Shown piece after piece: positions 26,763-32,662 of a stretch of DNA of 32,715 bases (its first letter is position 1; each line of letters starts with the position of its first letter). A program made the position numbers and the translations under genes. The notes below the pieces were generated by a model, which saw only the letters and a list, made by a program, of their open reading frames with translations, did not search any database and was not told where the DNA came from. The DNA is from Staphylothermus sp. (GTDB lineage Archaea > Thermoproteota > Thermoprotei_A > Sulfolobales > Desulfurococcaceae). The stretch is taken from positions 1-32,715 of the forward strand of contig JAGGVR010000138.1 in assembly GCA_021157925.1 (NCBI GenBank), read 5' to 3'.

Positions 26763-26865
<103 letters not shown>

Positions 26866-30186: not shown

Positions 30187-31998
30187 TCATGTCCACCTCC
30201 TTACTTGTCTACTTGTTAAAAAATCGTTGATCTTAGAAGCAAGGTCTTCAGCTCTAAACGGTCTTCCATCTATTTTACCCATATGAGTGGATATATTGAT
30301 CCCGGTCTCCATCCTTATGAGTAAGCCAAGTTGTCCACGATAATTATATTCAACAGTTATTATTGGTTTATCCATAGCATTCGAGATTACTTCGATGAAC
30401 TTACTTCTCGGGAAAGGCCATAGGTAGATTATTTGTATGATGCTTAGCTTGTATCCTTTCTCTTCTAATATTTTGTTTGCTTCAAGTGCTGCCCATGCAG
30501 CTGATCCCCAAGTCAGTACTATAGCATCTGCGTCCTCGGGTCTATGACCATATATTCTCATAACTTCGTATTTCTCCTCAAGTTCCTTCCGGAGTAGTTC
30601 TTCTTTTTTCATTCTTCTATTATATTGTTTAGAAGCTATGACTGGGTGCTCAGTAACTATTCCTCTCTCATCGTGTTCACTACTATCACTTTTCACTATT
30701 GCTCCCTGAGTACCTGGAGGTACCCATGGTGGCACAGCTTTATCGGTGATCTCGTATGGTAGGAATTTCCACCCATTTCTAATCATTTCTTCTGCTTTCT
30801 CCTTAGGTATTAATGCACCATATTCTAGTTTTACTTCTTCACTAAATGCTGGAACAGACCTAATGCTTTCAGCCATGTGTTTATCGATGAGAATTATTCC
30901 GGGGACTCTATATTTCCATCCAAGGTTTAATATTTCTATTGCTCTATAGTATGCATCTCCCTGATCTGCTGGGGCAACAACTATTCTCGGGTATTCTCCG
31001 TGTCCTGCGAAAAGAGAATATAAGAGTTCTCCTTGAGCAGAATGTGTTGACATCCCAGTACTTGGACCAGGTCTCATAGCTAATACTATTATTAGTGGTA
31101 GTTCGAACATGCCTGCTTCGCTCAATGTCTCGTTCATTAAAGCGAATCCTCCACCACTTGTTCCGGTTGCTGCTCTAACTCCTGTCCATGTTGCTGCTAA
31201 AGCCATTTGTGCAGCAGCTATTTCGCTCTCTGCCTGGATAACGGGTATGTTTTTCTCTTTCATCATGCGCACCATAAAGTGTAGGATAGGTGATGCAGGC
31301 GTCATCGGATATGCAACATATAGTCTTAGATCCGCTTTAACGAATCCAGTAGCTATTGCTTCGTTGCCAGTTAAGATTATTCTTGGCTCTTTTCTATTGA
31401 TTGGAGGCTTGAGTCTTGGTGTATCTATTGGTAAGGGCTTACTAGCCATGTATTCATACCCGATCATAGCCGCCTTAACGTTTTCTTCGATTACTTCTTT
31501 CTTTCCTTTGAATTGGTACTCTATTGATTTTTTCATGTATTCTACTGGTAGTCCGAGTAGAGAAGATAATGCACCAACAGCTATCATGTTCATTGTAATA
31601 GGTTTCAACTTGTGTTCTCTTAATAATTTCTTCAAAGGTAGTTCTAGCTTGATACCCCTTGGTGGTTCTTTCTTAACTACTTCGGGATCATAGAGTACTA
31701 AAGTGTTTTCTCCAAAGTCTTTTTCCTGCCTATTATATGTTTCCTCATCAAATGTTACTACGTAATCACTTATCCTAACAAGTTCATAGATCTTATCTAT
31801 TCCTCCCCTAACCCAATAAGCTGTGTGTCCTCCCCTAATAATGCTGGGATATTCTGAAACACCTATGACGTCGTAGCCCATGAAATGCATTATTCTAGCA
31901 ATTACTACTCCACTAGTAATGTTTCCGCTCCCAGCAGGTCCAGCTATGAGGATTTGAACAGAATCTTTTTGAGCCAAGACGTTCCACCTGGTGATCAA
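30187..31998 (-). CDS. 2-oxoacid:ferredoxin oxidoreductase alpha (gamma-alpha fused) subunit
   Basis: N-terminal gamma domain GPAGSGNITSGVVIARIMHFMGYDVIGVSEYPSIIRGGHTAYWVR; alpha YPMTPASPILHFM; TTG start. Confidence 0.94.
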   Translation of the reverse strand: MITRWNVLAQKDSVQILIAGPAGSGNITSGVVIARIMHFMGYDVIGVSEYPSIIRGGHTAYWVRGGIDKIYELVRISDYVVTFDEETYNRQEKDFGENTLVLYDPEVVKKEPPRGIKLELPLKKLLREHKLKPITMNMIAVGALSSLLGLPVEYMKKSIEYQFKGKKEVIEENVKAAMIGYEYMASKPLPIDTPRLKPPINRKEPRIILTGNEAIATGFVKADLRLYVAYPMTPASPILHFMVRMMKEKNIPVIQAESEIAAAQMALAATWTGVRAATGTSGGGFALMNETLSEAGMFELPLIIVLAMRPGPSTGMSTHSAQGELLYSLFAGHGEYPRIVVAPADQGDAYYRAIEILNLGWKYRVPGIILIDKHMAESIRSVPAFSEEVKLEYGALIPKEKAEEMIRNGWKFLPYEITDKAVPPWVPPGTQGAIVKSDSSEHDERGIVTEHPVIASKQYNRRMKKEELLRKELEEKYEVMRIYGHRPEDADAIVLTWGSAAWAALEANKILEEKGYKLSIIQIIYLWPFPRSKFIEVISNAMDKPIITVEYNYRGQLGLLIRMETGINISTHMGKIDGRPFRAEDLASKINDFLTSRQVRRWT

Positions 31999-32303
31999 TT
32001 ATTTTGTGTACAAGCGTATGAAAAATGTTCATTAACGTAATTAGCCCAGTTCTCTAGGTCAATTGGTTTAATCTCGTGAGATTCTCCCTGATACATTGTA
32101 ATACAGTCTTCGATAACATAGTATTCGTTCTCTATTCTACCCTTCAGCCTAAATTGTATACCTCCTGGTACTTCTTCGACAATAACGGGAAGAACTACTT
32201 CTGCTTCTTTATTCTCTTTGATTATGTTACCACCAGTTTTTCTAACATATTCCTCCAGGGCGCACCAGAGTATCTTTATTTCCTCTTTATTGTTTTTAGA
32301 AAT
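31995..32303 (-). CDS. hypothetical 102-aa protein with apparent non-standard start
   Basis: Continuous frame [ATT]SKNNKEEIKILWCALEEYVRKTGGNIIKENKEAEVVLPVIVEEVPGGIQFRLKGRIENEYYVIEDCITMYQGESHEIKPIDLENWANYVNEHFSYACTQNN; stop overlaps the TTG of the alpha gene; not in the ORF track. Confidence 0.6.
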   Translation of the reverse strand: MSKNNKEEIKILWCALEEYVRKTGGNIIKENKEAEVVLPVIVEEVPGGIQFRLKGRIENEYYVIEDCITMYQGESHEIKPIDLENWANYVNEHFSYACTQNN

Positions 32304-32452: not shown

Positions 32453-32526
32453 TGATCAGCGGGTAGTCCCTGCCAGATCATCCCCTCATGATCCGGGGTC
32501 AGACGCGTCATCTTTCTTCATCAAAA
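32453..32526 (-). ncRNA. candidate archaeal C/D box sRNA
   Basis: Minus strand: TGATGAA (C, 32517-32523) - 14 nt GAAAGATGACGCGT - CTGA (D', 32499-32502) - 15 nt - GGATGATC (C', 32476-32483) - 16 nt TGGCAGGGACTACCCG - CTGA (D, 32456-32459). Confidence 0.75.
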
Positions 32527-32662
32527 ATACGTATTTCTAGAACGTGTGATTTATATGTTCTTCCAGCTCATTAAGTCATTATCGAATAATTAATAAGTAA
32601 TGAGCTAGGTTTATTCATAACAGGGAAAACCTAAGACTATTGTTCTCGTATGGTGGTATAAT

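Follow-up and report, generated by a model that had tools for sequence, protein, structure and literature searches.

The closest described systems are the archaeal C/D box sRNAs (Dennis et al., 2015, PMC4644070; Breuer et al., 2021, PMC7994747). The locus reported here, found in a window of 32,715 nt (the whole stretch of DNA that was analysed, from the heat-loving archaeon Staphylothermus sp.), resembles them in its four ordered boxes, a length of about 66 nt, a 12-nt D′ guide and agreement with the N+5 rule, as well as in having both guides complementary to 16S rRNA and a host that encodes fibrillarin and Nop5. It departs from them in the deviating sequences of its boxes C (AUGAAGA) and C′ (AUGAUCU), in a 17-nt D′-C′ spacer with a possible stem, and in the spacing of its 16S targets, which lie about 560 nt apart whereas those of most dual guides are separated by less than 100 nt. 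These departures from the class are small. Long-range dual guides, namely N. equitans sR15 and sR17 and P. calidifontis sR56, have been proposed as 16S folding chaperones and likewise carry two guides for distant 16S segments (PMC4644070). The published examples pair with opposite strands of one helix or with sites that are near in secondary structure, whereas helix 24 and helix 43, the targets here, belong to separate domains. Searches of Rfam at gathering and permissive thresholds placed the sequence in no family at cut-off, and sR18 (RF01141), which has the C/D layout alone in common with it, reached 17.1 bits, below its cut-off of 45, making the locus a non-member. The gene is genuine and conserved and, since no Rfam family reached its cut-off, a previously unlisted member of a well-known kind, an ordinary dual guide.

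Sequence and syntenic copies identify minus-strand positions 32456–32521 as a C/D box sRNA gene of 66 nt from box C to box D. Read from 32521 to 32456, its order is AUGAAGA-AAGAUGACGCGU-CUGA-CCCCGGAUCAUGAGGGG-AUGAUCU-GGCAGGGACUACCCG-CUGA. This is the archaeal layout C-D′-C′-D, and the size agrees with the roughly 50–70 nt and the 10–12-nt guides beside D and D′ that define the class, the D′ guide having 12 nt and the D guide 11 pairing nt. The features, with the evidence for each, are as follows.

32456–32521, minus strand: core of the sRNA, box C to box D, 66 nt; boxes and guides kept in six syntenic copies.
32515–32521, minus strand: box C, AUGAAGA (RUGAUGA consensus with U5 changed to A); no variation in six copies; AUGAUGA at the equivalent place in genomes G005 and G004.
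32503–32514, minus strand: D′ guide, AAGAUGACGCGU (DNA AAGATGACGCGT), 12 nt; top site in the G016 rRNA operon; compensatory change in G129.
32499–32502, minus strand: box D′, CUGA; from the sequence.
32482–32498, minus strand: D′-C′ spacer, CCCCGGATCATGAGGGG, 17 nt, with a potential 4-bp stem beside the C′/D′ motif; from the sequence; copies differ in length.
32475–32481, minus strand: box C′, AUGAUCU, degenerate; AUGAUYU in the window copy, G002, G016 and G024, AUGUGGU in G013 and G014.
32460–32474, minus strand: C′-D stretch, GGCAGGGACUACCCG (DNA GGCAGGGACTACCCG), 15 nt, of which the 3′-most 11 nt pair with 16S CGGGUAGUCCC, placing N+5 at U801; 11 of 11 pairs.
32456–32459, minus strand: box D, CUGA; from the sequence.
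32548–32557, minus strand: TATA-like element, CATATAAATC, about 26–36 nt 5′ of box C; from the sequence; also in G002.

Boxes D and D′ are exact and box C deviates once; box C′ is degenerate yet retains the GA for sheared pairs. A reading of box C as UGAUGA was dropped, and AUGAAGA was taken instead because it is kept in six copies and because AUGAUGA aligns there in the canonical boxes of other genera. A terminal stem beside boxes C and D is a trait that derives from the L7Ae binding studies as they are cited in PMC7994747. In the window copy, reading and folding gave no convincing terminal stem at C/D, and a stem may lie further out; the G024 copy has about 3 bp. RNA folding of the whole sRNA was no better than that of shuffles (z −0.87), which is expected for C/D sRNAs. 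The CCCC/GGGG of the 17-nt spacer may allow the inner motif to form a k-turn instead of the usual k-loop, an idea that is suggestive only because folding does not rise above shuffles.

Copies were sought by DNA search in 61 relatives and were found in G002 (94%), G016, G024, G013 and G014, along with a degenerate one in G001. All five good copies lie near porG. When these are aligned with the window copy, ATGAAGA, the D′ guide GATGACGC and GCAGGGACTACCCGCTGA are invariant and the D guide followed by its box, GCAGGGACTACCCG|CTGA, is identical in 6/6 syntenic copies, with the flanks and the D′-C′ spacer varying in both sequence and length. The six conserved copies span four genera. Judged by this comparison, conserved boxes and guides amid drifting surroundings mark a functional C/D sRNA, not a set of chance boxes. 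The copy in G001 (L006/L051), which belongs to the same genus, retains GCAGGGACTACCCG, has CGGA for box D and has lost the D′ guide, reflecting either decay or a sequence error.

The host assembly (archaeal, 1.58 Mb, 158 contigs) was searched and contains neither 16S nor 23S, and for this reason targets were judged on the rRNA of relatives, chiefly the operon of the Staphylothermus-type genome G016. This genome was taken in place of G024, of the same genus, in which the 16S stretch consists of N. The G016 rRNA operon and its flanks (6.2 kb) were scanned with each guide anchored at its box. The top rRNA site of the D guide is 16S CGGGUAGUCCC, with 11/11 Watson-Crick pairs, the next anchored site having 7. 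By the N+5 rule the fifth base of the guide, an A, stands opposite U801; at −12 an A faces G and the duplex ends at 11. The numbering is consistent with the published intron locus 803 of the Desulfurococcales (PMC4496867), which lies two bases past this U and immediately 3′ of CGGGUAG in the relatives examined. The preliminary description, which had proposed a four-box C/D sRNA candidate with the fifth guide base opposite U801, is borne out on both points, and the mismatches within 10 nt of box D that it named as a possible refutation do not occur in the 16S duplexes of relatives. Its quoted complement, CGGGTAGTCCCTGCCA, is correct as a complement and its first 11 nt match the 16S of relatives; the additional CTGCCA is not 16S sequence (A·G at −12).

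Pairing on the 16S of relatives reaches 11 consecutive Watson-Crick pairs for the D guide and 9 plus one G-U for the D′ guide, compared with the usual requirement of at least nine that include the N+5 base. Among 20,000 shuffled D guides, a fraction of 0.0036 (0.36%) matched the rRNA operon with 11 Watson-Crick pairs. With G-U permitted, 15/400 shuffles reached 11 pairs for D and 31/400 reached 10 for D′. As these shuffle statistics by themselves are too weak to be strong support for the targets, we relied upon conservation and covariation.

Evidence for the U801 target extends beyond the syntenic copies. A gapped pattern of C box, guide and D box containing GGACTACCCGNTGA was found, in a search across the class, in 12/229 genomes from three families, the reversed control giving 1. 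In families f3 and f6 the same D guide, preceded by a C box, adjoins a D box and is accompanied by unrelated D′ guides, for which no clean common target emerged, and in G125 the D guide pairs over 10 nt with that genome's own 16S. Because the pattern recurs in three families, f3 and f6 share the D guide and G125 pairs with its own 16S, U801 is a recurrent guide target within the host's order. G005 carries a canonical sRNA with an identical D′ guide and a D guide that fits U801 at −2 to −12, and a second 16S site fits the latter equally well. In five relatives (L037–L041: G060, G047, G020, G028, G015) the 16S is interrupted directly after CGGGUAG, within the U801 guide target, and this insertion is the known intron locus 803; full D-guide pairing there is feasible only after splicing. 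Pattern searches found the U801 guide sRNA in 0/5 of these intron-bearing relatives, and it was absent too from most intron-free relatives.

The D′ guide had been left without an assigned target in the preliminary description, which was wrong, since it fits 16S helix 43. Its top anchored site in the G016 operon is GCGCGUCAUC, with 9 Watson-Crick pairs and one G-U (10/10), and the next has 8 pairs, four of them G-U. The N+5 base is the G preceding UCAUC, presumably about E. coli position 1357 in helix 43, a count along the E. coli sequence that could be one base off. For an independent test of this target we used a C-box pattern accepting either GATGACGC or GTTGACGC, and full C/D sRNAs were recovered with the former in G005 and G004 and with the latter in G128 and G129. 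The guide GATGACGC in G005 and G016 faces 16S GCGTCATC, and in G129 the guide GTTGACGC faces that genome's own 16S GCGTCAAC, where GUCAAC is matched by guide GUUGAC. Each helix 43 guide thus pairs with its own 16S, and exchanging them introduces one mismatch. We consider the helix 43 target credible on these alignments because of this compensatory guide-target change in another family. The sRNAs of G128 and G129 are built differently, with the helix 43 guide at the D position; a 16S site near 1335 was tried for the D′ guide of G129 and rejected, as G129's own 16S offers no good match. A C/D sRNA in G004 (L116) combines the helix 43 D′ guide with another D guide, AGGGATTAGCTT, for which 16S GGGCTAATCCC of G005 provides a fitting site. 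This sRNA exemplifies guide re-pairing.

We regard with high confidence the predicted role of this RNA as a dual-guide archaeal C/D sRNA for 2′-O-methylation of 16S U801 (D guide) and of a G at about 1357 (D′ guide); on comparative evidence it very probably steers ribose methylation of the small-subunit rRNA to two positions. What sequence comparison shows is the gene, how well it is conserved and how the two guides pair with their targets; transcription, RNP assembly and methylation are inferred. The RNA would be transcribed from the minus strand and bound by L7Ae, Nop5 and fibrillarin, the D guide then directing 2′-O-methylation to U801 in helix 24, in the 790 loop region, and the D′ guide to a helix 43 G that corresponds approximately to E. 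coli 1357. With the two targets some 560 nt apart in 16S, the double binding may also have a folding-chaperone effect. Fibrillarin (E 2.6e-108) and Nop (E 2.5e-80) are encoded in the host genome by adjacent genes on contig 32. The locus would provide a concrete conserved guide in the Desulfurococcaceae for ribose methylation at U801, by the P site and the subunit interface, and at helix 43. For one methylation site, the compensatory change between guide and target provides support from comparison that does not depend on RNA-seq, and the service of one 16S site by sRNAs with differing partner guides across families corresponds to the guide re-pairing known for archaeal sRNAs.

An unlikely alternative is that the D guide alone is productive, at U801, with the D′ guide binding helix 43 without efficient methylation or simply drifting. 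In G016, G024, G013 and G014 the D′ duplex has an A opposite C at −2, which leaves a clean duplex of 8 nt, G001 is without the D′ guide, and second guides lacking productivity have been described (PMC4644070). The window copy, however, has 10 pairs, GATGACGC is constant in six copies, and the guide tracks a 16S change in another family, all of which speak against this alternative. We think it improbable that, besides guiding both methylations, the sRNA links helix 24 (790 loop, platform) with helix 43 (head) and works as an assembly chaperone through which folding of the central domain is coupled to that of the 3′ major domain. For the chaperone proposal of PMC4644070 to apply, helix 24 and helix 43 would have to approach each other.

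Retention in 6/6 copies of GCAGGGACTACCCG, which extends past the 11-nt 16S duplex, could point to a target outside 16S, which would explain why GCA is kept at −14 to −12 although −12 is unpaired with 16S. Other families with the same 10–11-nt core, however, differ in the flanking bases, and no longer match was found within the rRNA operons examined, so that we give this idea very little weight. It is harder still to credit a box arrangement that arose by chance in intergenic DNA, or a decayed sRNA. The imperfect C and C′ boxes, the weak terminal stem and the failure to reach any Rfam family are what such an origin might leave, but boxes and guides are conserved across six genomes of four genera and covary with the target. 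The dual-guide reading is the one we prefer.

The sRNA is flanked by porG (plus strand, truncated by the window end) and by a gene for a 2-oxoacid-ferredoxin-oxidoreductase-like subunit (30187–31998, minus strand); a near relative's version of the neighbouring protein is 96% identical. The TATA-like element upstream of box C is a candidate promoter. The interval separating the sRNA from the oxidoreductase gene encodes a protein of roughly 100 aa (31998–32300, minus strand) that is conserved, with 59% identity to the G016 and G024 copies. No ATG, GTG or TTG start was seen in its frame within the window, and for this reason a rare start codon or an altered N-terminus is likely. Elsewhere in the window, ARAGORN reported no tRNA, and Rfam identified one at 26766–26865 on the minus strand (56 bits, 100 nt, covering the full 71-position model), which is probably an intron-containing tRNA gene.
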